The notes under the pieces: generated by a model
What the model was told of the DNA's origin: nothing
Databases searched by the model: none
What the model saw: only the letters and a program-made list of their open reading frames with translations
NCBI RefSeq assembly: GCF_003555545.1
Contig: NZ_CP032157.1
Coordinates: forward strand, 2,918,546-2,982,545
Source: Paraflavitalea soli
Lineage (GTDB): Bacteria; Bacteroidota; Bacteroidia; Chitinophagales; Chitinophagaceae
Direction of reading: 5' to 3'
Length of the DNA stretch: 64,000 nt
Made by a program: the position numbers and the translations under genes
In this document: piece by piece, positions 2,588 through 45,588 of the stretch
How positions within the stretch are numbered: the stretch's first letter is position 1
Layout of the letters: each line of letters opens with the position of its first letter

Positions 2588-3595
2588 ATGAATAAACGGA
2601 TTATAAAATATCTTTCCGCTGGTTGCCTGGTGCTGTCGTTCCTCCTGAGCTCGCCCGTTTTGCAGGCGCAAATTAGCGCAGCAGACAAGGCCATCCTGAA
2701 GAAAAAGGAAGACTCTTTAAAAATATTTTCGGCCCGCATGGTATTCGACTCCATTACGGCCAACAGGTTCCGCAGCGACAGCCTGTTTGTACGCACTTTT
2801 GTACGCGCCCTGCTTACCAGGAACTCGTTTTATTATCCTTTTGATTCATTGAACATTTCCAGGTTGTATGCACCCGACAGCAGCTTCCGCATTTTCACCT
2901 GGCAGATGAAGAAGGATGAATATGTGTATATGCAAAAAGGCGCCATACAAATGCAAACGAAGGATGGCTCCCTGAAGTTATTTCCCCTGTTTGATGCTTC
3001 AATGTACACGAAGAACCCCATGGATTCTGCCCGCTCTGCACGCAACTGGATCGGTGCTATCTACTACCGCATCATCATGAAGGAGTACAATGGTAAAAAG
3101 TATTATACCCTGCTGGGCTTTGATGATTACAGTGTGAACAGCAATAAAAAATGGATGGAGGTATTGTCCTTTAATGAAAGACAAGAACCTGTATTTGGAG
3201 GGCCATTTTTCTCCTATAAGGATGACTCCGTCAAGAAAGCGGTGCAATCCCGGTTTAGCATTGAATACAAAAAAGACGCTAAAACCTTCCTCAACTACGA
3301 TCCTGAAATGGATATTATACTGGTGGATCACCTCATCTCTGAAAGTGATGAACCGGAAAAGAAATGGACCTATATTCCCGATGGTGATTATGAAGCCTTC
3401 AAATGGCAAAATGGCCAGTGGGTGCATGTCAATAAGCAGTTCAACCAGCGGTTAAAAGATGGCGAATTCCCCAAAGAAGCCCTCATGCTCGATGATGCCG
3501 GCAATGTGAATGAACGGCAGCTGGAAGAAGCCTCCAAACGCAATATGGAAAAGGCCAAAAAGAAGCCGGAGCCGCCTAAGAAGAAGGACAATTAG
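2588..3595 (+). CDS. Secreted protein of unknown function
   Basis: A 335-aa protein with an N-terminal signal peptide: charged start MNKRIIKY, a hydrophobic core up to about residue 26, and likely cleavage after LQAQ. I do not recognise the family. The mature part is rich in Lys, Asp and aromatic residues and looks globular, with beta-rich stretches such as YYTLLGFDDYSVNSNKKW. It ends in a long charged helix, and the last about 20 residues are a Lys/Pro/Glu-rich tail. Chitinophagaceae encode many such exported proteins of unknown role. It follows the heptose genes in the same direction but appears to have its own promoter, and is convergent with the PH-domain gene. Confidence 0.78.
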   Translation: MNKRIIKYLSAGCLVLSFLLSSPVLQAQISAADKAILKKKEDSLKIFSARMVFDSITANRFRSDSLFVRTFVRALLTRNSFYYPFDSLNISRLYAPDSSFRIFTWQMKKDEYVYMQKGAIQMQTKDGSLKLFPLFDASMYTKNPMDSARSARNWIGAIYYRIIMKEYNGKKYYTLLGFDDYSVNSNKKWMEVLSFNERQEPVFGGPFFSYKDDSVKKAVQSRFSIEYKKDAKTFLNYDPEMDIILVDHLISESDEPEKKWTYIPDGDYEAFKWQNGQWVHVNKQFNQRLKDGEFPKEALMLDDAGNVNERQLEEASKRNMEKAKKKPEPPKKKDN

Positions 3596-3621
3596 GTCTG
3601 AATCCCAATGCTATATACTAT

Positions 3622-4266
3622 TTACCCCAGCAGCTTGCTCTTGGCCCTGTTGTACTCCTCTTCGGATAGGACGCCTTGCTGCCTGAGCTGAAACAGCTTT
3701 TCCAACTCGGAAGCAATGTTATGACCGGAAACCTGGCCAGTGGAGGCAGTTCCCGCCGAAGTATTGGCTTGCCATCCCATAGCAGCCGCCATTTGTTTGG
3801 CCTGGCTGGATACCTGGAGGGTTTTATACTCAGATTGGGCCAGTGTAATGGTATCTTTCAATCGTTTGGGATGATGTACATTGAAGTAGTCTGTGGCCCC
3901 TATTTCTGCGGCTGTTTGTATTTCTACATGACCATAATTGAAGATACGTCCCCATATATTTTGATCGTACGACACATTGTTGATCTTTTCCAGCGGGCTT
4001 TCCTTGGCGTAATGATTGATGAGCCCTGTTTCATCGATCACCCGGTAATTGGTCACTACCCAGATATCTACCTTCCAATTCCAATAAGCAAACAGGAAAT
4101 ATACAATGCCTGCTACAGCCGCTATCCATCCCCAGTATTGAATAAAGCCAATAAAGTAAGAGGCCACCAAACCTACCAGCGCCAGCAGGGCCGGCACCAC
4201 CATCTGCAACCAGCTCCGGTGGGTGATCAGTAATATTTGCTCTTCTTTCTGAAGCGGTGTACGCAT
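3622..4266 (-). CDS. PH-domain membrane protein with C-terminal SHOCT domain
   Basis: A 214-aa protein. Two adjacent transmembrane helices lie at about residues 22-60 (LLALVGLVASYFIGFIQYWG and the following AAVAGIVYFLFAYW). A bacterial PH (bPH2, YdbS/YdbT-like) domain follows at about 68-145, including WVVTNYRVIDETGLINH and the typical PLEKINNVSYDQ and YGHVEIQTAAE strands. The last 30 residues (ASELEKLFQLRQQGVLSEEE...) are a SHOCT motif, a short helical oligomerisation module. Such proteins sit in the inner membrane with the PH domain in the cytoplasm, and their function is mostly unknown. It is convergent with the preceding secreted-protein gene (26 bp apart). Confidence 0.85.
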   Translation of the reverse strand: MRTPLQKEEQILLITHRSWLQMVVPALLALVGLVASYFIGFIQYWGWIAAVAGIVYFLFAYWNWKVDIWVVTNYRVIDETGLINHYAKESPLEKINNVSYDQNIWGRIFNYGHVEIQTAAEIGATDYFNVHHPKRLKDTITLAQSEYKTLQVSSQAKQMAAAMGWQANTSAGTASTGQVSGHNIASELEKLFQLRQQGVLSEEEYNRAKSKLLG

Positions 4267-4390
4267 GAGGATCGTTTAAACAATAAATGTAATAATTTCC
4301 ATTCAAGTGCAGGGTACTGTTTCTACACCCGCTCTCTTTCCACCTCTCACTTCGCTGCCTCAGTGCCTCTATACCTTATTGCCTTTTCTA

Positions 4391-5461
4391 TTACCGGAAG
4401 CATGATTGCTTACCGAGTAAGTCCTTCACCAGTTTATTCCACTTCTCCTGCATAACAATATTGGCACTATGGCGGGTCTCTGTATCATATTGAGTTTGCC
4501 AGGCATTCAACTCATTCATCTTTTGTGCATGGACCTGTTCCAGTTTTTCCATGTAATTGTCTTTGGTAAGCCGCAACTGCCTTAAAGTGTCCACCAGTTC
4601 ACAGGCTTTTAAGACTGTGAGCTCAAAATGCCTTTGTTCATGCGCCAACACCATCTCGTTTCTTTCGTGTTTTTGAGCAAACCAGGAACGCGCTTTATCG
4701 AAATAAGCCATCACTTGCACGTTCACCCTGATCTCTCCATCTTCTATTTTGCTGGCATATTTAACATTGATAGAGCTGGCCGTTTGTGCTGCAGCGCGGC
4801 TCAGCTCATCAGCTTTACCTATAAAATCATTGACAAGCAATGGCCGGCCAGGCGAATAAGCCAGTCGGCCTGAATCGCTGGAAATCGATATGATTTCCAC
4901 GGTAAGCGACACGGGTGCGTTGGGCGCATGGAGACGTTTATTTTTACCCCACCAGCTGTCAAATTCATGCATGCTATTATTGATATTATCCCGGATCAGG
5001 TCTTCCACATTTTTGAAGAGGTCGCCCATGGTTTGCACTTCACCCCGTCCTTTATAATCGGTCAATTTTGTGTCATTGATATAGAAGCTAAGGGTGACCA
5101 GGGATTCCACCTTCGTCCTTATACCACCCGGCAGTTCTTTGATGTTCAGGTCGGTGATGTGCAGCTCCATGGGTGTGGCGGCTGTATCCTGGCGATAGTT
5201 CTTTTGAATGTACCGCCCGAGGGCAGCAGTAACGCCCCCTTCATAATTCACAGCCACATTCTTTTTCCCAAACAGCCCTGTCCTAAGCGTTCCTATAGCG
5301 CCCGTGTCGGCCCTGTCGTCCTTAATGGCAACAATGCGGTAATGCAGCAATTGCTTGCCGGCATTTTCATCCCGGAAGCGGATATAGCGGGTATCCTGTG
5401 CCTGTAACAAGGGGGTTAGGGACGAGAGTACCATCACCAGGAAAAATAGTTTTCTGTACAT
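4391..5461 (-). CDS. Secreted DUF922-like putative zinc protease
   Basis: A 356-aa protein with a signal peptide (MYRKLFFLVMVLSSLTPLLQAQ). The C-terminal half contains MVLAHEQRHFELT, an HExxHF-type metal-binding motif, within a segment that resembles DUF922 putative Zn-dependent proteases (DKARSWFAQKHERNEMVLAHEQ). The N-terminal part (about 25-190) looks like a separate beta-rich domain. No partner gene is evident. The metalloprotease activity is inferred from the motif alone. Transcribed toward the PH-domain gene with 124 bp between them. Confidence 0.68.
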   Translation of the reverse strand: MYRKLFFLVMVLSSLTPLLQAQDTRYIRFRDENAGKQLLHYRIVAIKDDRADTGAIGTLRTGLFGKKNVAVNYEGGVTAALGRYIQKNYRQDTAATPMELHITDLNIKELPGGIRTKVESLVTLSFYINDTKLTDYKGRGEVQTMGDLFKNVEDLIRDNINNSMHEFDSWWGKNKRLHAPNAPVSLTVEIISISSDSGRLAYSPGRPLLVNDFIGKADELSRAAAQTASSINVKYASKIEDGEIRVNVQVMAYFDKARSWFAQKHERNEMVLAHEQRHFELTVLKACELVDTLRQLRLTKDNYMEKLEQVHAQKMNELNAWQTQYDTETRHSANIVMQEKWNKLVKDLLGKQSCFR

Positions 5462-36281: not shown

Positions 36282-37670
36282 CTACAATAGGTCTTCTTTC
36301 ATTTTATCTTTTACGATCAGGGCGCATACAAAGCCGGCGGATATAAGCAGGATACCTCCAATCTGTACGGCCAGCAGCCGGTCGTTGTGCAGGTAGTTTT
36401 CCATGATCTTACCAAAGAACAGGGAAGCAATGATCTCGGGCAACACGATAAAGAAATTGAAGATGCCCATGTAGATACCAATTTTATTTTCGGGCAGGTG
36501 ACCTGCCAGCATGGAATAAGGCATGGACAGGATGGAGGCCCAGGCAATACCTACCATACTCATGGAGAGATACAGCATCGAAGGATCGGTGATATAGTTG
36601 ACGGAGATAAGCCCTACCCCACCAATGAGCAAACAAAAGGTATGGGTCATCTTGCGGCCAAACTTGCCCACCCAGAAAGGAAGGGAAAAAGAGAATAAAC
36701 AAGTTACCAGATTGAGCACGGCCGAGGTAGCGCCGGCATGTTCAACGCCCTGGGTAAACAGGTCGCGCACACCTGCATCTGTAGCTGTGGCATCTCCTTT
36801 AAAAATATCCCTGGCCACGCCGGTAGAATAATAAAACCACATCAGGAACAAACCAGGCCAGGTTAGGAATTGTACCAGGGCCAGCCTTTTCATTTGTTGT
36901 GGCATATGGGTAATGGAATGCCAGATCTCTTTTACAGCACCATTGAAACCGGTACCATGTTGTGCATTGAGCTTTTGCTTCCAGTTGGGATCACGGGGAG
37001 GATATTCCCTGCTGCGCAATACGGTATACAGCACGGCTCCCAAAAACATAATGCCGCCGATATAGAAGGACCACATGATGTTTTGTGGAATGCCGCCGCC
37101 TACTTTGTCGCGGCTAATGCCAAGCCATTCCCATTTTACCAGGTAAGAAGGCAGGAAACCGGCGATAAAAGCGGCTGCGCCGATAAACATACTTTGCATG
37201 GCATAGCCAAATGCCCGCTGTTTATCATTGAGATTATCGGCCACAAAAGCGCGGAAAGGCTCCATACTGATATTGATACAGGAATCGAGTATCCAGAGGG
37301 TGCCGGCCGCAATCCATACGGTGGGTGAATTGGGCATGACGAACAAGGCCAGGGAACTGAGGATGGCCCCGATGAGGAAGTAAGGACGCCGCCTGCCCCA
37401 GCGGGGATGCCAGGTCCTGTCGCTCAGGTAACCAATAATGGGTTGAACAAGGAGGCCAGTCATGGGAGCGGCCAGCCAAAGGCCGGGAATGGCTTCGGGT
37501 TTTGCGCCCAGGTATTCATAAATGGCGCTCATATTGTTCATCTGGAGGGTCCAGCCAAACTGGATACCAAAGAACCCGAAACACATATTCCATATTTGCC
37601 AGAAATTGACGCTGGGTTTGACCTGAATGGCTTTTTCGGTCTCCAATGTAAGGGGGGTAATAGGCTCCAT
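36282..37670 (-). CDS. SLC45-type MFS sugar transporter (maltose/maltodextrin-like)
   Basis: A 462-aa protein with 12 hydrophobic helices. The N-terminal pattern WNMCFGFFGIQFGWTLQMNN and GYLSDRTWHPRWGRRRPYFL, with the long D-R-x-GRRRP loop, is that of SLC45-family sucrose/maltose:proton symporters. It sits in the cytoplasmic membrane. Sharing a transcription unit with the SusA-like amylase (10 bp apart) suggests it imports the maltose or short maltodextrins the amylase releases. The promoter region upstream holds a perfect 8-bp inverted repeat with a 5-nt spacer. Substrate direction and specificity are inferred from context. Confidence 0.86.
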   Translation of the reverse strand: MEPITPLTLETEKAIQVKPSVNFWQIWNMCFGFFGIQFGWTLQMNNMSAIYEYLGAKPEAIPGLWLAAPMTGLLVQPIIGYLSDRTWHPRWGRRRPYFLIGAILSSLALFVMPNSPTVWIAAGTLWILDSCINISMEPFRAFVADNLNDKQRAFGYAMQSMFIGAAAFIAGFLPSYLVKWEWLGISRDKVGGGIPQNIMWSFYIGGIMFLGAVLYTVLRSREYPPRDPNWKQKLNAQHGTGFNGAVKEIWHSITHMPQQMKRLALVQFLTWPGLFLMWFYYSTGVARDIFKGDATATDAGVRDLFTQGVEHAGATSAVLNLVTCLFSFSLPFWVGKFGRKMTHTFCLLIGGVGLISVNYITDPSMLYLSMSMVGIAWASILSMPYSMLAGHLPENKIGIYMGIFNFFIVLPEIIASLFFGKIMENYLHNDRLLAVQIGGILLISAGFVCALIVKDKMKEDLL

Positions 37671-37713
37671 AGCAATCGTTGTTTTGTGTTAAGCGGTGGA
37701 AAGATAGTAAGTT

Positions 37714-37734
37714 ATTGTGTAAATAATACACAAT
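37714..37734. promoter_or_regulatory. Palindromic operator candidate for the amylase/MFS unit
   Basis: Inverted repeat ATTGTGTA-N5-TACACAAT, 44 bp upstream of the MFS start. A -7-like TATCTTTC (minus strand, + positions 37699-37706) lies just downstream of it, so a bound regulator would meet the -33 region. It is also 115 bp upstream of the WGR gene. Confidence 0.45.
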
Positions 37735-37848
37735 TGATAAACTGCGGGGGCGAAAAGTTGAAAAGGAAGTGGCTTAAAGAATACTCAATATACGAAAAAC
37801 ACATCCGTTTTTTATCTACCTTCCCTTTCCCTAATTCGTAGTTACTCC

Positions 37849-40800
37849 ATGCGCCTGATCAAACAAACTGTTCTCTATTTTAAAGAAGGAAACGCGGATA
37901 AAGTTTATGAAATTGACCTGTGCGATACAGGCAACGATCAATACGTAGTGAACTTCCGTTATGGACGCAGGGGCTCCACACTAAAGGAAGGCAGTAAAAC
38001 GCCGGTGCCGGTATCGCTGCAGGCAGCTGAAAAGATCTTTGATGCGGTAGCAGCGGAGAAAATGAACAAAGGGTATACGAGTTCTGAAAGCGGGCAAACT
38101 CCTGCACCCAGGGCCAGCACGTTTTCTCTTCCTGCCTACACAGGACCAGGTACTGATTGGATGTCGCTGCCTGCCGGTAGGACCAAGAGCATTCTCAAAC
38201 GATTGCAGCAAGCCGCAGAAGGAAAAACAGCGCCTAAGCGAACTCCCTGGAAGATCAGCCGGGTGATCTGGAAAGCAGGGGAATACAAGATCAAGGAAGC
38301 TGTACCTTTTATCATTCAACTATTTGGAAAGGGTGATACGCTGCATCAATACAGCTGTACCTGGGCATTGGTCCGCTGTGGCCATGAAACAGGTATCGAA
38401 ACGTTGCAGGCCATTTACAAAGACCACCCTTCTCCCCTGGTGAGCCGCATTGCCGGGGCCGGATTAATGACGATGCTTTCCGGTACGCTGCTTGAACAAC
38501 ATGGGGCCAACTATCTACGGACCCTGCCTGCAGGCGTTAAAGCCGCCATTGAAGCCAACCAGGCGACCGGATTGGAGGACCTATTGACGGATAAAATAAC
38601 GCAACAGCAATCGCAATACAGCTGGCTGGAAAGTATCTATATCCTTTCTTTGGATAAACGATGGATACGTCCGTTTGTCAAACGTTTATTGTTGCAGGCT
38701 CCTTTTCATCCCAATTACTTTCAACATATCCGGACTATTTATAAGCTGGCGGAATTGCTCGATGATTTTGAATTCACGGGCATGTTGGCCTGCCGTCTTG
38801 AACGTGAGCAGGAAATGTTTGAACACCATGTTCCTGTCAACTCGAAAGATCAGAAGATATACCTGCCGGCGGTAGATGAATACATCAATCCGCGAAAGGA
38901 ACTGCTCAAAAAGAACAGCCGGCTGGCCTATTCGCAAAAAACACGTTGGTATTTGCATCGCCGCGTACGTCGGCGCCTGGCCATGCTGGGTAATACGGAG
39001 AATACAGATTATGTAAAACTGGCAACAGGGATATTGATTGGTTATAACAGGAAACTGGATTTTCGGGAAGCCTGGGCCAAGCATGACAGCATCTGGAGTG
39101 GCGGGCGTTATACTACTGTGGAAACGCATTATCCCCAAAATGCAACGGCAGTATTGATGCACCAGCTATTGAGCGGCGACCATCCTGGCCTGGAGTTGGA
39201 GGGCGGTGTTTTGTGGCGCCTGCGATCTGAAGTGGAAACACGCTTTGCTGCACAACGTGCTGCTACAGCCAACAACGGCGGTGGCGGCATTTTGAAAAAG
39301 CTACTCGGTCTGTTCAATAAAAAGAAGGATACGAATACACCTTTACCAGCCGCGGTACCGGCGGCAGTGGCACCGAGTGGACAATCAACAGCCAATGAGA
39401 ACGGTACGCCTTACCTGCATTTGTGGAATAAACTGCCACAATCTTTCGTCCAATTATTGGTGGATGCCGAAATGGATGAAGTGCATGAGTTTGCTGAAGG
39501 CGCTTTAACCATCCACCCGAGTTATAGCGAGATCAAAGAAAAACTCGATACACCGGTTTATAAGCGTTTGTTGTTATCGCCCTTCCCTATTCCGGCAACA
39601 TTTGGCTATAAGCTGGTAACAGAAAAATATGCTACGCTGCTACCGCCCTGGGAGCTGGTCATTGCCCTACTCAATTCGCAGCATGTGCCGGCCAGGGAAA
39701 AAGGGATGGAATGGACTTTGAGCAATCAACCGGCTTACTTCCTGCAAAGTGATTTCATTAAAGACCTGTTGTTTGTGCAGCATGGGGAAATCAGGCAATG
39801 GGCCAGGAATCTGATCGGCCAAAGTCATATCAATAGTGAACTGAGAAAAGCGGTTGCAGGTAAGGCTATAGCAGAGATGATGACCGCCACGGCGATCGAT
39901 GAAAATACAGAAGGCAGGATACATGGCGCCGGAGATGGCTTATTGGCATTATTTGGCCCTGAGTTGCAGGAAATACCGCTTACGATGATCGCCGATCTGC
40001 TGTTGCACAGGTATCCACCGGTCTTGTTGTTTGGATTGAAATTGCTAAAGGCCAATCAACGATATGTGAATCCCGGTACCCTGAGCAAATCATTGTTAAT
40101 AGGGTTGTTGCAACACGATTATGCACCGGTTCGTGAAGCTGGTGTTTCTCTGTTGGCGGATATAGATATTTCGGTTTTATTGAAGTACCAGGATGAAATG
40201 ATCGCGGCCTGTGTATCGGTCTATCAAAACGTACGGCAAGGCATGGCGCCTGTAATGGCCCGCCTGGCACAGCAGGATAAAACAGTTGGGGACAAAGCGG
40301 CCGCGCTATTGATGCCTTACCTGTTGCGGAAAGAAACCAGTGAAGGGCTGCATGAAGATGTGAGCAGGTTATTGTGCCAGGAATTGAGCGGACACCTGCA
40401 AAACGCCAATAAAGAAACAGCGCTCAATTTATTATACGGCAACTACGCTGCTGCGCAGAATGTAGGGGTAGTGATCCTGGAAAAATATACGCATCCGGAT
40501 CAATTGACGATGCCACAGGTAATAGCATTGGGAGGGCATGAAAACCTTACGGTGCGGAGCTGGAGCTGGCAATTTTACGGGCAACAATCAGCACGTATAC
40601 GGTATGAAAAAGAAGTGGCCATCAAGCTACTGGAAAGCAAGTGGCAGGATACGCGGCAGTTTGCCATGCAGTATTTCAGGGAGCAGTTTGTAGCGGCCGA
40701 CTGGTCGCCCGAAATATTGATCGCACTGGCCGATTCAGTGAAGCCTGATGTGGAAGCATTTGGCCGGGAGCTGATCACGAAATTCTTTGACGGTGAACAT

Positions 40801-41196
40801 GGCCTGCAATACCTTTTGCAACTGAGCCAGCATCCCAGCGAAAAAATGCAGCTGTTTGCTACGAACTACCTGGAACGGTTTGCCAGTGACGATGTAGCCA
40901 GGATAGAGTCGCTGGAATTTTATTTCCGTTCGGTATTGACGCGTGTAAACAAGGGCCGGATCGCCAAGAACCGGATCTATCAATTCCTATTGACTGAAGG
41001 ACGGAAATCAGAAGAGGCAGCTAAAACAGTCTGTACCATCTTGTCGGATATTTCGGCCACAGGAGCGATTGGCGATAAAGCAACATGTATCGACGTGTTG
41101 TTGCAACTGAGATCGTTGTATGAAGTGGAAACCCCTTTACAGGTGAAACCTGTAGAGACAAGGATGGCATCGAACAATATCAATACCTTATTATAA
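37849..41196 (+). CDS. Retron-associated WGR / HEAT(ARM)-repeat protein
   Basis: A 1115-aa protein. Residues 1 to about 80 form a WGR domain (LIKQTVLYFKEGNADKVYEI, then NFRYGRRGSTLKEGS, where the WGR tripeptide is YGR). WGR domains bind nucleic acids, as in PARPs. A linker with Pro-rich spots follows. From about 110 to the end there are many HEAT/ARM-like helix pairs, for example RLQQAAEGKTAPKRTPWKI, EAVPFIIQLFGKGDTLHQYS and LLQHDYAPVREAGVSLLADI. A Gly-rich and Lys-rich insert (about 480-520) interrupts the repeats. No enzymatic motif was found. It lies 9 bp upstream of the winged-helix/SWIM gene and shares the locus with the RT. The likely role is sensor or effector partner of the retron. 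Confidence 0.83.
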   Translation: MRLIKQTVLYFKEGNADKVYEIDLCDTGNDQYVVNFRYGRRGSTLKEGSKTPVPVSLQAAEKIFDAVAAEKMNKGYTSSESGQTPAPRASTFSLPAYTGPGTDWMSLPAGRTKSILKRLQQAAEGKTAPKRTPWKISRVIWKAGEYKIKEAVPFIIQLFGKGDTLHQYSCTWALVRCGHETGIETLQAIYKDHPSPLVSRIAGAGLMTMLSGTLLEQHGANYLRTLPAGVKAAIEANQATGLEDLLTDKITQQQSQYSWLESIYILSLDKRWIRPFVKRLLLQAPFHPNYFQHIRTIYKLAELLDDFEFTGMLACRLEREQEMFEHHVPVNSKDQKIYLPAVDEYINPRKELLKKNSRLAYSQKTRWYLHRRVRRRLAMLGNTENTDYVKLATGILIGYNRKLDFREAWAKHDSIWSGGRYTTVETHYPQNATAVLMHQLLSGDHPGLELEGGVLWRLRSEVETRFAAQRAATANNGGGGILKKLLGLFNKKKDTNTPLPAAVPAAVAPSGQSTANENGTPYLHLWNKLPQSFVQLLVDAEMDEVHEFAEGALTIHPSYSEIKEKLDTPVYKRLLLSPFPIPATFGYKLVTEKYATLLPPWELVIALLNSQHVPAREKGMEWTLSNQPAYFLQSDFIKDLLFVQHGEIRQWARNLIGQSHINSELRKAVAGKAIAEMMTATAIDENTEGRIHGAGDGLLALFGPELQEIPLTMIADLLLHRYPPVLLFGLKLLKANQRYVNPGTLSKSLLIGLLQHDYAPVREAGVSLLADIDISVLLKYQDEMIAACVSVYQNVRQGMAPVMARLAQQDKTVGDKAAALLMPYLLRKETSEGLHEDVSRLLCQELSGHLQNANKETALNLLYGNYAAAQNVGVVILEKYTHPDQLTMPQVIALGGHENLTVRSWSWQFYGQQSARIRYEKEVAIKLLESKWQDTRQFAMQYFREQFVAADWSPEILIALADSVKPDVEAFGRELITKFFDGEHGLQYLLQLSQHPSEKMQLFATNYLERFASDDVARIESLEFYFRSVLTRVNKGRIAKNRIYQFLLTEGRKSEEAAKTVCTILSDISATGAIGDKATCIDVLLQLRSLYEVETPLQVKPVETRMASNNINTLL

Positions 41197-41205
41197 ACAG
41201 TCAGC

Positions 41206-42870
41206 ATGTTATTCAATTATCGCTTTGCAGGCAATAGTACGGTGACCAGTACTTCGCATATGACGGGGCTGTCCTTTGCGCCGGATACCTTGCGCGAGAG
41301 TGCCTGGTTTGTGGGTAAGCTGCATAAGAAGCTGGCTTTCCGGGAGGCTATCTCGGCCTTACATGATGTAGTGATCAGTGATCTCCGGTTCAAGCCCAAA
41401 GACAAAACGGCTTATAAGGAATGGGTAGCGCAAAACGAAACGATGTTCCTGGCGGCTTTTATGGCTGAATACGATGCGCAGGCAGCTACCAACCGGATGG
41501 CGGAGATCAATGCGGAGCTGGCAGCCATCAGGCAGAAAAAAGACAGTATACTCTCTCCCTTTTATAAGTCAAGGCAAAAATATTTCAACTATCTCTACCA
41601 AAAGGACAGGGAGGCCTGGTACGTGCTGGATCCGGTGATCACGATCCACCCTGATGAATTGTTCTTTGAATGCTTCAGTGAGGATGAATCTACTTATGGC
41701 AAGCTGGGGTGTAATTACAATGTATTTAAGGAGGTGAATGATTATAAATGCGGCACCACGAATGTGGATTATTCTACGGGGCTGTATGAAGAATTTCAGA
41801 AGATACGGGATTATAAAGAAACGGAGTTGAAGGTAGACCCCAGTGGATTTACGGTGCAAACCAGCCAGGAAGAATCTTACAAAGAAGTAAAGATTGATCT
41901 GCCGGATAGCTGGGTACGGGGCTTTTTACAGGTAAGCAGTGCGATGACGCTGCCCACGATCCAGGTAGAGCTGCATCCGATGGATATATACGGCATCTGC
42001 CTGTTGCTGCGTCGCTTTAGAGAGAAAAGGGGTCCCCGCTCGCTGCGTTATATATTGGAACCTGGTCATCCGGTCAAGATCGTTCTTGAGCCCTGGGGTA
42101 AGGAGATCATTTGCGCCCGCAGCATCTATACGGGGGCGGTAAAACAGGAAATAAGGACCTGGGGCAGAAGAAGGCTGCTGATACTGGAAAGGCTGATACC
42201 GGTAGCCAAAAAGTTTACGGTGCATTTATTAGGAACAGGCTTGCCGGCCTTTTATATAGCAGACCTGGGTGATATGAACTTTACGCTGGGGCTTAGTGGA
42301 TGGACCAGCAATGACTGGAGCCATGCCGGTAATTTTGACCTGCTGGCGCCACGGCTTGCGGTAGATGACGCCATCAAACAACAGGTATATGCTGCCTTGC
42401 AAAAAGAATGGCTGGGCACCTCGGCGCAAATCGCCCAGCAACTTAATATAGAACAGGCAAAAGTATCGGGAGCCTTAAGTGCTTATACGCAAGCAGGCCG
42501 GGTAATCTATGATCTGAACAGGGAAGTGTACCGGCTGCGGGAACTGAGCCGGGAGCCTTTGCCTTTTGAGCAATTGCGCTTTGACAACCCCAGGGAAGAG
42601 TTGGCTGCGCAACTGGTAAGTACGCAGGAGATAAAGGTGACGGCGAATGCATTGCCTGACAACTGCCTGCAACTTACAGGCTCGGTAAAGAGCGCCCGCA
42701 AAAACTTTAACCCGAAACTGGTGATCGATGGCGACGAGAAAATAAAAGCGGCAGATTGCACCTGCAGCTATTATATAGAAAATAAATTATACAAAGGTCC
42801 CTGTGAGCATATGCTGGCGATACGCCAGGCATTCAATAAAACGAGGATAGCCGGAACGGGGCTGAAATAA
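41206..42870 (+). CDS. Retron-associated winged-helix plus SWIM zinc-finger protein (WHSWIM)
   Basis: A 554-aa protein. The first about 350 residues have no recognised domain and include a coiled-coil-like segment (about 88-115). A winged-helix-like region follows at about 390-450 (KEWLGTSAQIAQQLNIEQ, VSGALSAYTQAGRVIYDL, EVYRLREL). A SWIM zinc finger is at 518-535: CTCSYYIENKLYKGPCEH, that is CxC...CxH with Cys518, Cys520, Cys533 and His535. SWIM domains bind DNA or proteins. The gene sits between the WGR/HEAT gene and the non-coding RNA plus RT, so it is most likely the second accessory protein of the retron. No nuclease motif is visible. Confidence 0.85.
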   Translation: MLFNYRFAGNSTVTSTSHMTGLSFAPDTLRESAWFVGKLHKKLAFREAISALHDVVISDLRFKPKDKTAYKEWVAQNETMFLAAFMAEYDAQAATNRMAEINAELAAIRQKKDSILSPFYKSRQKYFNYLYQKDREAWYVLDPVITIHPDELFFECFSEDESTYGKLGCNYNVFKEVNDYKCGTTNVDYSTGLYEEFQKIRDYKETELKVDPSGFTVQTSQEESYKEVKIDLPDSWVRGFLQVSSAMTLPTIQVELHPMDIYGICLLLRRFREKRGPRSLRYILEPGHPVKIVLEPWGKEIICARSIYTGAVKQEIRTWGRRRLLILERLIPVAKKFTVHLLGTGLPAFYIADLGDMNFTLGLSGWTSNDWSHAGNFDLLAPRLAVDDAIKQQVYAALQKEWLGTSAQIAQQLNIEQAKVSGALSAYTQAGRVIYDLNREVYRLRELSREPLPFEQLRFDNPREELAAQLVSTQEIKVTANALPDNCLQLTGSVKSARKNFNPKLVIDGDEKIKAADCTCSYYIENKLYKGPCEHMLAIRQAFNKTRIAGTGLK

Positions 42871-42884
42871 TAAGGGGCAGCACA

Positions 42885-42914
42885 TTAGAATTTAAAAACA
42901 GGAACCTATATTTG
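42885..42914 (+). promoter_or_regulatory. Candidate promoter of the retron ncRNA
   Basis: A perfect -7 element TATATTTG at 42907-42914 lies in the gap after the WHSWIM stop codon. A TTAG (one mismatch to TTTG) 18 nt upstream is a possible -33. Transcription would start at about 42921, only about 8 nt before the a1 arm, as expected for a retron primary transcript. Confidence 0.55.
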
Positions 42915-42928
42915 TTAACCGCTTTTTG

Positions 42929-43179
42929 TGTTCTTTGACAGAGGGAAAAAAGATATGCACCTTGCTTCCGAAAGGAAAGGGCGATGTTTCGTCGTCCATG
43001 CAACATGAATATTTCATGCATCACCAAATATAATCTTTACTATGGCATACACACTACCGGTCAACTATATCAGTGCCGGCACTGTGTGCCATATAGTTCA
43101 CCGGTAGTGTGTATGCCTGGCGTTGATTAATCTGGTCACCGGCGAGCACGAAGGCAGCATTATTCCCTCTGTCAGAACA
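42929..43179 (+). ncRNA. Retron msr-msd non-coding RNA (a1/a2-bounded)
   Basis: Bounded by an inverted repeat: a1 TGACAGAGGGAA (42936-42947) pairs perfectly with a2 TTCCCTCTGTCA (43163-43174). TGTTC (42929-42933) pairs with GAACA (43175-43179) across a 2-nt bulge. The msr part holds a TTCC-GAAA-GGAA hairpin (about 42967-42978) and a CATGAA-TAT-TTCATG stem (43004-43018), closed further by ATG/CAT. The msd part is a 74-nt hairpin (43044-43117). The RT start codon is 22 nt after a2. The exact RNA ends and branching guanosine cannot be fixed from sequence alone. Confidence 0.86.
43044..43117 (+). other. msd hairpin of the retron (predicted msDNA template)
   Basis: 18-bp perfect stem GGCATACACACTACCGGT (43044-43061) with 43100-43117, one C-C mismatch (43062/43099), then an 8-bp stem AACTATAT/ATATAGTT. 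The tip holds a 7-nt bulge CAGTGCC and a 5-bp hairpin GGCAC-TGT-GTGCC (43078-43090). The tip also contains the 14-nt palindrome CAGTGCCGGCACTG (43071-43084), so it can fold in two ways. Confidence 0.85.
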
Positions 43180-43201
43180 TGATTTCCATGCTTCATTTAC
43201 C

Positions 43202-44719
43202 ATGGCCGATAATAAACTCACCCGTCAACAGTTGTATGACCGCATCCGCGAGAGTTCTAAAGATGCCGTTGTATTGGAGGAAATGAAGCGCCTGGGTTTT
43301 TGGCCCAAGGGTGATGAATCGCCTACCATACCGGAATTGCTGATCAATAAGGAAGCAGCATTAAACAAGGAGTTCCGGGAACTGTTTGAGAAGCACCGCC
43401 AATACCAAAACAAAGAAGCGGTATTGAAAGAAATGCGCCTGAAGCGCATGGCAGCGGCTAAAGCAAAGCGGGAAGAGACCAAAAAGAAACGCGAACAGCA
43501 ACGCTTCGAAAAGGCAGCTGCCTGGAAGAAACGAAAAGAAACAGAGATACTTTACCTGGGTGAGGATGTTTCCATTGGCTTAAACAATATGGCAGGCAAT
43601 GCAGACGCGCTGCATAAACACCATTTACCTGCTTTTGCCAATGAAAATGAACTGGCAGCAGCGATGGGTATTGAACTGAAAGCGCTGCGCTTCCTGGCCT
43701 TTTCGAGGAAGGTATCCACTGTGTCGCATTACCGGAAATTCTACCTGCCTAAGAAATCAGGTGGCAAAAGGCTGATCTCTGCCCCCATGCCGCGGTTGAA
43801 AAAGGTACAGTACTGGATACTTGAAAATATCCTCAACAAGGTAGCAGTGCACCAGGCGGTGCATGGCTTTACGCTCAACCGCTCGATCATCAGCAATGCG
43901 CAATTGCATGTAGGCAAAAAAGTAGTATTGAACCTGGATGTGAAAGATTTCTTTCCTTCTATACATTTTAAAAGGGTAAAAGGCTTATTACAGCAACTGG
44001 GTTATTCAGAAAAGATTGCTACTATCTTATCGCTGTTGTGTACAGAAGCGGTGACAGAAGAAGTAGCGCTGGACGGCGGGAATTATTTTGTACAAAAAGG
44101 CAACCGGGTCTTGCCCCAGGGAGCCCCTACCAGTCCGGCCATTACCAATATACTGTGTTTTAAACTGGATAAACGTTTGCAGGGATTGGCTACCAGGCAC
44201 CAATGTCATTATACGCGCTATGCAGATGATGTGACTTTCTCCTGGAACAGTACGGATATCAATCCACAGCAAATGGTATGGCGCATTAAAAAGATATTGG
44301 CGGACGAAGGATTTGCTGTTCACCCGGACAAGATCCGCATCATGCACCAGGGAGCCCGCCAGGAAGTAACGGGTATCATTGTCAATGAAAAATTAGGTAT
44401 AGACCGCAATAAGTTACGCCAATTCAGGGCGCTCCTACATCAGTTGCAAACAAAAGACGCATCGGAACTGATGCCGGGCCAGGTTAGTCCGGCCAATGCA
44501 GTGATCGGGTATGCTAATTTCGTAAAGATGGTAAAGCCCGCACAGGGCGCAGCCTTTGCCAAGGCTATTGATAAACTGTTTCAGACTGGACGGTTGCAGT
44601 ACCTGGTCAAAGATGCACCTCCTGTGCTTAATGGCAATCCCGCCCCCTCTCCCTCTCCTACTTCCAATCCACCAGCCAACAAGGGTGATGATAAGCCCTG
44701 GTGGAATGTAACGGGTTGA
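43202..44719 (+). CDS. Retron reverse transcriptase
   Basis: A 505-aa RNA-directed DNA polymerase. Residues 1 to about 145 are a charged, helical extension (Lys/Arg-rich coiled coil at about 70-115). The RT core has NAQLH (232-236, the NAxxH hallmark of retron RTs), LNLDVKDFFPS with a catalytic Asp at 246, LPQGAPTSP (304-312) and YADD (340-343). VTG is at 389-391 in the thumb region, also a retron hallmark. A Pro/Ser-rich tail closes the protein (about 475-505). It would copy the msd into branched msDNA. Start ATG 43202 is 22 nt after the a2 repeat. No group II intron maturase domain or DGR repeats were seen. Confidence 0.93.
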   Translation: MADNKLTRQQLYDRIRESSKDAVVLEEMKRLGFWPKGDESPTIPELLINKEAALNKEFRELFEKHRQYQNKEAVLKEMRLKRMAAAKAKREETKKKREQQRFEKAAAWKKRKETEILYLGEDVSIGLNNMAGNADALHKHHLPAFANENELAAAMGIELKALRFLAFSRKVSTVSHYRKFYLPKKSGGKRLISAPMPRLKKVQYWILENILNKVAVHQAVHGFTLNRSIISNAQLHVGKKVVLNLDVKDFFPSIHFKRVKGLLQQLGYSEKIATILSLLCTEAVTEEVALDGGNYFVQKGNRVLPQGAPTSPAITNILCFKLDKRLQGLATRHQCHYTRYADDVTFSWNSTDINPQQMVWRIKKILADEGFAVHPDKIRIMHQGARQEVTGIIVNEKLGIDRNKLRQFRALLHQLQTKDASELMPGQVSPANAVIGYANFVKMVKPAQGAAFAKAIDKLFQTGRLQYLVKDAPPVLNGNPAPSPSPTSNPPANKGDDKPWWNVTG

Positions 44720-44734
44720 TGACAATGGGGATAG

Positions 44735-45091
44735 CTATACTGTTCCAAACTTTTGGGTCACTTCGATCTTACCAACAATATTGCTATTGAACTCTTCCAA
44801 CTCTTCTGCAGGCACCCACAGTTCGTTGTGGATCTCTCCTCCTACGTTCTGTACCTGAAATTTCTTCACATACTCTGTCCTAACATGAAATTTCGTAACA
44901 AAGCCAGAGCCGGAGGCCGGCACATTCCAGTCGCGGGCAATCTGGACAGCATACTCCTCATTCATCACCGGATAAAAGATAGGTTGCTGTAATAACCTGG
45001 GAGGAAATTTTGTCCAGCCGGACGCTTCAATCTTAGCGAGTTCGTTAGGGCCTACTGGTCGGTATAAGGTTGTAAGTTCTATTGATCCCAT
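44735..45091 (-). CDS. Small conserved protein of unknown function
   Basis: A 118-aa soluble protein. It has a strongly conserved-looking core: YRPVGPNELAKIEASGWTKF, PPRLLQQPIFYPVMNEEYA, IARDWNVPASGSGFV, and a C-terminal LWVPAEELEEFNSNIVGKIEV. I recall such proteins being annotated as ADP-ribosylation/crystallin-J1-like, but this name has weak support and no catalytic motif is evident. The frame extends back to 45163, overlapping the upstream DUF5990 gene; the ATG at 45091 (MGSIELTTLYRPVG) is the natural start. Convergent with the retron RT, with 15 bp between stop codons. Confidence 0.75.
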   Translation of the reverse strand: MGSIELTTLYRPVGPNELAKIEASGWTKFPPRLLQQPIFYPVMNEEYAVQIARDWNVPASGSGFVTKFHVRTEYVKKFQVQNVGGEIHNELWVPAEELEEFNSNIVGKIEVTQKFGTV

Positions 45092-45144
45092 GTTATTATT
45101 TTTCAAACACAACTCAATCATCTTGTGGAGGAACATCATAGTAG

Positions 45145-45588
45145 CTAATTTGTAACCCGCCACCCATCAAAGGGCTTCACGGTGGCGCAAGTAGGCGTTC
45201 CATCTTTGGCGGTGCCCGGAACAACTGTTTCTAATATACGACCGGAGTTTTCAATCAGCAGGTTTACCATTTCCCAGGTGATGCCTCGCAAGGGTACCTT
45301 CAGGCGACGGCTCCAGGGTGAATCCAGCTGTCCGGCTGAGGTACCTATATTAATATAGATGAACCTTTCAGCCACCGGTCCTTGTACAAAGGGGCCAGCA
45401 AAATCGGGTTGGCCATCCTTTCCGGTCTTTATTTTGGCAGACAGGTCAAACACCAGGTCGTCGCCTTCTGCCTGTTGTATTTGCACCAGTGTATGATTGG
45501 CGCCGCTGCCCTTTGGCAGGGCAAAACGCACACCTGCTACAGGCGCCCGAAGGATAATGCGAAACATGAACTCTCTATCGTTTTTCAT
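45145..45588 (-). CDS. DUF5990 family protein
   Basis: A 147-aa protein with the DUF5990 pattern. It includes FALPKGSGANHTLVQIQQAE, FAGPFVQGPVAERFIYINIG, SAGQLDSPWSRRLKVPL and PGTAKDGTPTCATVKPFDGW. The family is small, soluble and uncharacterised, possibly a ligand-binding beta-barrel. Its start codon overlaps the stop codon of the upstream gene (45585-46169) by 4 bp, so the two are coupled. The next gene in the same direction begins 53 bp beyond its stop. Confidence 0.85.
   Translation of the reverse strand: MKNDREFMFRIILRAPVAGVRFALPKGSGANHTLVQIQQAEGDDLVFDLSAKIKTGKDGQPDFAGPFVQGPVAERFIYINIGTSAGQLDSPWSRRLKVPLRGITWEMVNLLIENSGRILETVVPGTAKDGTPTCATVKPFDGWRVTN

Follow-up and report, generated by a model that had tools for sequence, protein, structure and literature searches.

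A complete retron of type XIII almost certainly occupies positions 37849-44719 of the window that we analyzed, a stretch of 64,000 nucleotides from Paraflavitalea soli (NZ_CP032157.1, positions 2,918,546 to 2,982,545; a single contig of 8.44 Mb makes up the genome), and a PCNA-like sliding-clamp fold is probably present in one of the two partner proteins. The interest of the locus lies less in its identity as a retron than in this clamp prediction, in a DNA-level signature within its non-coding RNA (ncRNA), and in a sister pair of genes that occurs without a reverse transcriptase (RT). The gene set, its co-inheritance, the ncRNA structure, the DNA-level constraint on the msd region, the predicted clamp fold and the sister pair were all computed directly. 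What we add to the knowledge of type XIII is the predicted fold, a model of the ncRNA and the existence of loci with several ncRNAs; a first-pass annotation of this DNA had recognized the retron and missed the clamp fold, the multi-ncRNA loci and the RT-less pair. The features of the locus are the following.

37849..41196, plus strand: WGR/HEAT-solenoid partner protein of 1115 amino acids, PADLOC WGR_XIII (open reading frame (ORF), PADLOC, Pfam, AlphaFold2)
37873..38094, plus strand: WGR domain, residues 9-82 of that protein (Pfam)
41206..42870, plus strand: clamp-like/winged-helix/SWIM partner protein of 554 amino acids, PADLOC SWIM_XIII (ORF, PADLOC, Pfam)
41302..42303, plus strand: predicted PCNA-like sliding clamp, residues 33-366, two babbb-babbb halves (a, helix; b, strand) interrupted by an insert (AlphaFold2, Foldseek against PDB and BFVD)
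41407..41604, plus strand: helical insert in the predicted clamp, residues 68-133 (AlphaFold2; missing from 6/6 aligned RT-less homologues)
42367..42540, plus strand: predicted winged helix, residues about 388-445 (AlphaFold2 elements; weak Pfam HTH_65 match in 10/53 members)
42730..42819, plus strand: SWIM zinc finger, residues 509-538 (Pfam; C518, C520, C533 and H535 invariant)
42907..42914, plus strand: TATATTTG, probable ncRNA promoter, matching the Bacteroidota -7 element (motif comparison)
42934..42950, plus strand: ncRNA repeat a1 (a1/a2 pairing against shuffles)
42961..43138, plus strand: ncRNA core, msr plus msd (cmsearch, 141 bits)
42979..42997, plus strand: msr hairpin (RNA-like, 92/528 standard pairs being G.U)
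43023..43136, plus strand: msd region (extent inferred from G.U depletion, 21/2074)
43046..43115, plus strand: msd hairpin (stem arms 43046-43068 and 43093-43115, apical hairpin 43078-43090)
43160..43176, plus strand: ncRNA repeat a2 (a1/a2 pairing against shuffles)
43202..44719, plus strand: retron RT of 505 amino acids, PADLOC RT_XIII (ORF, PADLOC, residue conservation)

The ORFs and the a1/a2 pairing of the ncRNA confirm the order that the first-pass annotation had given to these four plus-strand elements, with 9 bp between the WGR/HEAT and SWIM genes and with the ncRNA, its a1/a2 repeat, msr and msd, adjoining the RT gene on the SWIM side. PADLOC types all three proteins as XIII, in agreement with the type proposed at that first pass, and its type XIII models cover most of the length of each (WGR_XIII 1112 bits, SWIM_XIII 786 bits, RT_XIII 611 bits). 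The second-best PADLOC RT model reaches 306 bits, and each of the 25 models listed of 65 is a retron RT model, which places the RT with the retrons by PADLOC profile scores rather than by a tree. Above the Pfam cut-off are WGR, HEAT_2, SWIM and RVT_1. Type XIII has the same gene set, reportedly defined in the typing scheme of Mestre et al. 2020 as RT, WGR/HEAT-ARM and WHSWIM, and carries its ncRNA between SWIM and RT as here. The RT bears the NAxxH, VTG and YADD motifs of retron RTs: NAQLH at residues 232-236 and VTG at 389-391, both already pointed out before, and YADD; across 55 RTs, N232, H236, V389, T390, G391 and Y340-A-D-D343 are invariant and A233 is nearly so.

One scan of a genome collection returned 61 loci. 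RT similarity assigns 57 of them (L003-L059) to type XIII, and four (L060-L063) hold other, non-XIII RTs. The closest relative found is L003, a Niastella metagenome bin with an RT 80% identical (near-identical records were possibly excluded). The expectation that the two upstream genes would be kept beside homologous RTs was borne out in 51/57 type XIII loci, which have both partners; the other six (L011, L028, L036, L048, L052 and L053) are without one or both and end at contig ends. The partners lie upstream of the RT in 45/51 loci and downstream in six, all Campylobacterota by record title, and the RT-first order recurs in L116 and L117 from the window's class. By their titles, the 57 records come from Bacteroidota, Cyanobacteria, Campylobacterota and the gammaproteobacterium Phytobacter, to which L072, from Methylobacterium, adds an alphaproteobacterial case. 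In 49 loci with near-complete proteins, the window included, the distance matrices of RT, SWIM and WGR/HEAT proteins correlate at r 0.955-0.967 (0/2000 permutations as high), and the mean pairwise difference is 0.64 for WGR/HEAT, 0.476 for the RT and 0.385 for SWIM, making SWIM the most conserved of the partners and WGR/HEAT the least. The P. soli genome itself gave one match to the SWIM family and one to the WGR/HEAT family. The locus is an ordinary, intact member of its type, and we found no departure from it.

To the SWIM protein we attribute, with good but incomplete confidence, a PCNA-like sliding-clamp fold. An AlphaFold2 run on an alignment of 53 SWIM sequences gave a model with a mean predicted local distance difference test score (pLDDT) of 72.9. 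When this model was compared with the PDB by Foldseek, all 50 listed matches were chains of PCNA or DnaN, each with probability 1.00, E 2.7e-9 to 5.1e-8 and 8-15% identity. Target-normalised template-modelling (TM) scores ranged from 0.22 to 0.69, the upper value over about 240 columns and the lower one for the first-listed match, a chain of 758 residues. In the viral library BFVD, 28 of the 50 matches listed bear the name PCNA, DnaN or beta clamp, and 22 are unnamed, uncharacterised or without a clamp name. The elements of the model fall into four quarters: b34-39, a45-57, the insert helices 68-133, b144-147, b151-157 and b163-170; b183-187, a191-198, b206-211, b214-219 and b225-229, followed by a linking helix 234-246; b252-256, a258-270, b279-284, b289-294 and b299-307; and b314-319, a321-330, b336-341, b348-353 and b357-363. 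PCNA runs twice through babbb-babbb, and the predicted order, which alone was assigned and by hand, fits it. The protein would thus share fold and element order with PCNA and beta clamps; unlike them, it has no profile match, an extra helical insert, and a fused winged helix and SWIM finger. The latter scores exactly at the Pfam cut-off in the window, and 52/53 relatives match SWIM at E up to 10.

Several results weigh against the clamp assignment. The first half of the fold is modelled at a pLDDT of about 69-82. Sequence profiles are silent: there is no PCNA family among the 25 Pfam families listed of 32 for the 53 members at E up to 10, none in the full Pfam lists for the window's SWIM protein and ten others, and none when profiles were run against PDB sequences (at E up to 1 and at E up to 10), while hhalign against T4 gp45, with seven close clamp sequences as profile, returned 0.1%. 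Pfam PCNA_N was likewise not found in Halorubrum phage HF2 or halovirus HVTV-1, so that no good PCNA profile was available for comparison. Given that no sequence profile makes the link, we call the domain clamp-like by its predicted fold, not a PCNA. The charge of the putative inner surface depends on where the helices are taken to end. With wide borders (1-6 residues beyond those of DSSP), the inner net charge averages +6.3 against -6.8 elsewhere, and 12/23 conserved basic positions lie within 61/259 core positions (p 0.0017); with the DSSP borders, which speak less for a clamp, the figures shrink to +1.7 against -2.2 and to 7/23 within 44/259 (p 0.07). The first-half inner helices are not basic (-0.8, -1.5), a further point on the same side, and those of the second half are basic family-wide (+1 and +3 within DSSP borders; +2.6 and +3.9 when the borders are drawn wider).

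These charges bear on the possibility that the clamp fold is a scaffold, in which ring formation and DNA encirclement were lost and the domain became a protein-protein platform in the retron ribonucleoprotein. The helical insert of about 66 residues, present in the type XIII clamps aligned and missing in the six RT-less homologues, would suit such a platform, as would an inner surface that is merely mildly basic with DSSP borders, but the basic second-half helices across the family argue against it, and we regard a scaffold as rather unlikely.

The C terminus of the RT offers a hint of a further contact. The protein has an N-terminal extension of about residues 1-135 and a C-terminal linker that ends in a KPWW tail, and a WW/GW-type motif lies within the last ten residues of 36/39 RTs outside the cyanobacterial, campylobacterial and Phytobacter groups. 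Six of seven Campylobacterota RTs have NILxMF there, and neither motif occurs in the last ten residues of the cyanobacterial (0/7) or Phytobacter (0/2) RTs. Such tails might be peptide motifs for the clamp. As side observations, the RT of L057 (Flectobacillus) is split over two frames, by a possible frameshift or a sequencing error, and a second, distant RT (L002; a 415-amino-acid frame, 27% identity over 206 residues) lies about 32 kb before the window in the same genome.

The ncRNA had been placed at 42929-43179, which is right to within a few bases, a1 starting at 42934 and a2 ending at 43176. The a1/a2 pairing of the window beats 60/60 shuffles of its own flanks, and in 58/72 copies of the ncRNA it outdoes all but at most 3/60 shuffles, the other 14 falling short of this. 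At gathering thresholds, Rfam held no family for it and reported a single tRNA in the window. Across 62 sources (995 kb), a covariance model trained on 33 copies, which match by construction, picked up 72 copies; all of them belong to type XIII loci, and the non-XIII RT loci L060-L063 gave none. At least one copy is present in the window and in 56/57 type XIII loci; the exception, L028, has 75 bases available before its RT. Among loci fetched later, seven of the eight with a full-length clamp-SWIM protein gave seven more copies (L066, L067, L072 and L116-L119; L066 probably repeats the contig of L040, as the two contigs are equally long and their ranges overlap), and the model found none in the eighth, L120. 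This last locus, with an RT, a full-length SWIM gene and a weak WGR/HEAT match, is a possible divergent branch.

The ncRNA covaries strongly. Using 67 distinct rows of the 72, in an alignment that was fitted to the structure and is biased towards it, we found that the structure pairs 93.4% of cells compared with 61.9% in shuffles, that cells changed on both sides number 978 compared with 295, and that pairing drops to 31-40% when the partner columns are shifted by one to three positions. The count of further pair types, at 110, was not above that of shuffles (116). Upstream of the ncRNA, TATATTTG matches the Bacteroidota -7 element, whose consensus is TANNTTTG. It stands in the same register in 13/13 copies of the closest group (the window, L003-L013 and L015), and a -7-like motif precedes 17/72 copies (mean of shuffles 3.0, maximum 9); TATATTTG is probably the ncRNA promoter. 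Scans of 37600-45200 for sigma-70-type promoters (14, shuffles 10.8, sd 2.9) and for terminators (10, shuffles 7.4, sd 2.2) gave little over chance.

Eleven of 56 loci hold more than one ncRNA near a single RT: nine have two copies (L016, L022, L030, L031, L032, L035, L042, L043 and L059) and two have four (L033, 5108-5967, and L038, 5115-6339). Some of the extra copies are weak but significant, the lowest at 45.7 bits, and the ncRNAs near one RT mostly have different msd stems. Separately, in the Calothrix-type loci L044, L045 and L046 the sole copy found directly follows the SWIM gene and stands about 2.5 kb ahead of the RT.

The msd carries a signature that appears to mark it as selected in the form of a DNA hairpin. 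G.U pairs make up 92/528 standard pairs in the msr hairpin and 21/2074 in the msd helices (Fisher p 1e-46); leaving out one mostly U-G pair, the msr count is 38/461 and p is 2e-15, both p values being optimistic as the sequences are related and the cells non-independent. RNA accommodates a G.U pair, whereas reverse transcription turns it into a C.A mismatch; its depletion would therefore be expected where selection acts on the DNA copy. Helix 4, the main variable stem, has one G.U in 587 standard pairs, and each of its nine pairs shows all four Watson-Crick types; helix 3 (14/325) and helix 5 (5/178) stand somewhat above it. Indirectly, the same counts suggest that the msd is copied and place it near 43023-43136, and counting G.U depletion allows msd borders to be located simply, with no data but the sequence.

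While its pairing is kept, the sequence of the msd stem turns over. In the 137 between-locus pairs with 0.9 or more of flank identity, identity averages 0.963 for the flank, 0.70 and 0.68 for the two stem arms and 0.84 for the apex, and the 5′ arm lies more than 0.2 below the flank in 81/137 pairs. Over half of the stem positions differ between the window and L003, whose flanks are 94% identical, and the two copies of L016 have flanks 99% identical and stems 54% identical. Against a general turnover stand the remaining 56/137 pairs, in which the 5′ arm falls short of the flank by 0.2 at most, and the counter-case of two copies in L038, with 88% identity in the stem at 86% in the flank. We also considered the stem as a bait for methylases or nucleases and rejected this: in 30 stems left after deduplicating the 72, palindromic 4-mers number 58, a count reached by 15/1000 plain shuffles and not above dinucleotide-preserving ones (112/500 as high), and palindromic 6-mers show no excess either over dinucleotide-preserving shuffles (105/500). 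The same stems contain 87 TA steps, more than the 55 that plain shuffles lead one to expect, and few TC, AA and GA steps.

We propose a joint model for how these parts may work, whose chances we put just short of even, and in which msDNA restraint, trigger, release and target are steps that we infer. From the msd part of the neighbouring ncRNA the RT would make a branched RNA-DNA molecule, the multicopy single-stranded DNA (msDNA), whose DNA part is a long hairpin. The predicted clamp would grip the stem of this hairpin without reading its sequence, which would explain why the stem is kept in shape and not in sequence; that the clamp touches msDNA at all we consider an evenly balanced proposition. 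The winged helix would sit on the apical tip, the better-conserved part, and the HEAT protein would use its WGR domain to hold the branch or the DNA end. RT, ncRNA and msDNA together would keep the clamp/WGR-HEAT effector inactive until phage proteins bind, modify or destroy the msDNA, whereupon the freed pair would seat on replicating DNA and stop replication, aborting the infection. That the pair is a replication-blocking effector is a distinctly more tentative part of this proposal. The anti-phage activity of the locus is itself a prediction, and two further results speak against the model: no enzyme active site was recognized, and no homologue turned up among 50,697 phage records searched at E up to 1e-3.

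Placing the winged helix on the tip follows retron-Kva2, of type IX (RT, HEPN and winged helix), which like this locus has a winged-helix partner and two accessory proteins. In that system the winged-helix protein cradles the tip of the msDNA stem-loop and contacts the stem backbone, and its trigger is a phage protein that mimics the winged-helix protein (PMC13405049). The two systems differ in that the type IX effector is a HEPN RNase, for which neither PADLOC nor Pfam matched a family in our locus, and in that the winged helix here shares its chain with a predicted clamp and a SWIM finger.

The WGR/HEAT protein would be the other half of the effector. WGR is a nucleic-acid-binding domain in PARPs, and the WGR region is conserved among type XIII partners and was not found in the five scanned partners of the RT-less pair, which lends weak indirect support to the first-pass idea that it senses msDNA. 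Pfam places HEAT_2 at residues 138-205, and the AlphaFold2 model (mean pLDDT 85.5) shows the WGR domain followed by a long helical solenoid. Sliding clamps are hubs bound by many replication proteins, which invites another reading, that the clamp-like domain is a sensor imitating the replication clamp, so that a phage polymerase, loader or clamp binder engages it and frees WGR/HEAT as a toxin. The fast evolution of WGR/HEAT would agree with this, but no toxic domain was recognized in it, Pfam giving only WGR and HEAT_2 above the cut-off, the 50 Foldseek matches listed are HEAT-type solenoids with TM scores of at most 0.28, and the putative sensor would be the most conserved of the three proteins; we hold this reading to be improbable. 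In L018 (Runella), two further genes stand between those for WGR/HEAT and SWIM (2800-4998), encoding a 479-amino-acid protein whose start is WGR-like by eye and a 250-amino-acid probable membrane protein.

The clamp-SWIM protein also occurs apart from retrons. A plasmid search gave seven records: one full-length type XIII protein (Methylobacterium), five shorter homologues (Streptomyces twice, Diaphorobacter, Asticcacaulis and Nonomuraea; 22-32% identity) and a fragmentary match, H7, that covers 18% of the query. The short proteins match PADLOC SWIM_XIII in 4/4 cases scanned (E 5e-40 to 3e-52), and the helical insert is missing from 6/6 of those aligned. In 15/15 short-form loci examined (ten from searches of the window's phylum and class, five plasmid records), the neighbour is of the DUF6493 type, annotated, where at all, as "DUF6493 family" or hypothetical protein and placed by Pfam in one or more of DUF6493, DUF7824 and DUF7825, a count that is partly by construction since 4/15 supplied the DUF6493 alignment and six the short SWIM sequences. 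None of the 15 has a match to the RT, to WGR/HEAT or, by covariance model, to the ncRNA in the 13-19 kb fetched. This RT-less pair thus joins a homologous clamp-winged-helix-SWIM protein to a large neighbour, and differs from type XIII in having no RT, ncRNA or clamp insert and a DUF6493/7824/7825 partner. WGR was not found in five such partners scanned, and HEAT gave matches below the cut-off in one of the five. Homology between WGR/HEAT and DUF6493-type proteins was not detected (hhalign 0.2%, with a five-sequence alignment), which weighs against the joint model. On contig 3 of genome G540, an RT-less pair (L115) and a full type XIII retron (L116) lie about 17 kb apart.

These loci support the notion that the clamp-SWIM protein works as a pair with a large partner, a unit that may be older than the retron. 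Since the insert, WGR/HEAT, the RT and the ncRNA occur together, they likely form a retron-specific interface. The pair could also be taken to mean that the element serves host DNA maintenance or regulation rather than defence: it sits on large replicons in Streptomyces, Nonomuraea, Diaphorobacter and Asticcacaulis and in genomes of the phylum, and no consistent defence neighbours were noticed beside it, no systematic test having been made. Such a host role seems a slim prospect, as the distribution is patchy (full-length clamp-SWIM in 3/295 genomes of the window's class, its own included; short or full forms in 14/395 of its phylum) and several retron types are experimentally anti-phage. Least probable of all is a mistaken clamp assignment, in which the AlphaFold2 model built from 53 relatives slipped into a familiar fold: its modest mean pLDDT, the silent profiles and a charge that varies with helix borders would allow this, but clamps fill the listed PDB matches and lead in the viral library, the element order fits, and the RT-less homologues are without precisely the insert that interrupts the fold.

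Returning to the proposal of an msDNA-restrained clamp, type XIII could, more speculatively, be described as clamp retrons, in which a ring is parked on the msDNA stem and freed at infection, extra ncRNAs perhaps spread the sensing, and the module arose from a clamp-SWIM protein and partner that gained RT, insert and WGR/HEAT; we think this broader picture unlikely to hold in full. In the literature searched, which lay outside Mestre et al. 2020 and the 2024 retron census, we found no mechanism for type XIII, and, among the papers listed, no title linking a retron to a sliding clamp and none on multiple or tandem retron ncRNAs or on a hypervariable msd stem; DUF6493 was not described in it either, and neither XIII nor SWIM occurs in the main text of PMC12548924. 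The multi-ncRNA loci raise the question of why one RT keeps several different msDNAs. For an anti-phage type that has been catalogued and left unexplained, the predicted clamp would provide a first concrete and testable mechanism. If the prediction is true, the sliding-clamp fold of this retron partner would represent an immune component of a new kind, and it would tie msDNA sensing to the replication machinery.

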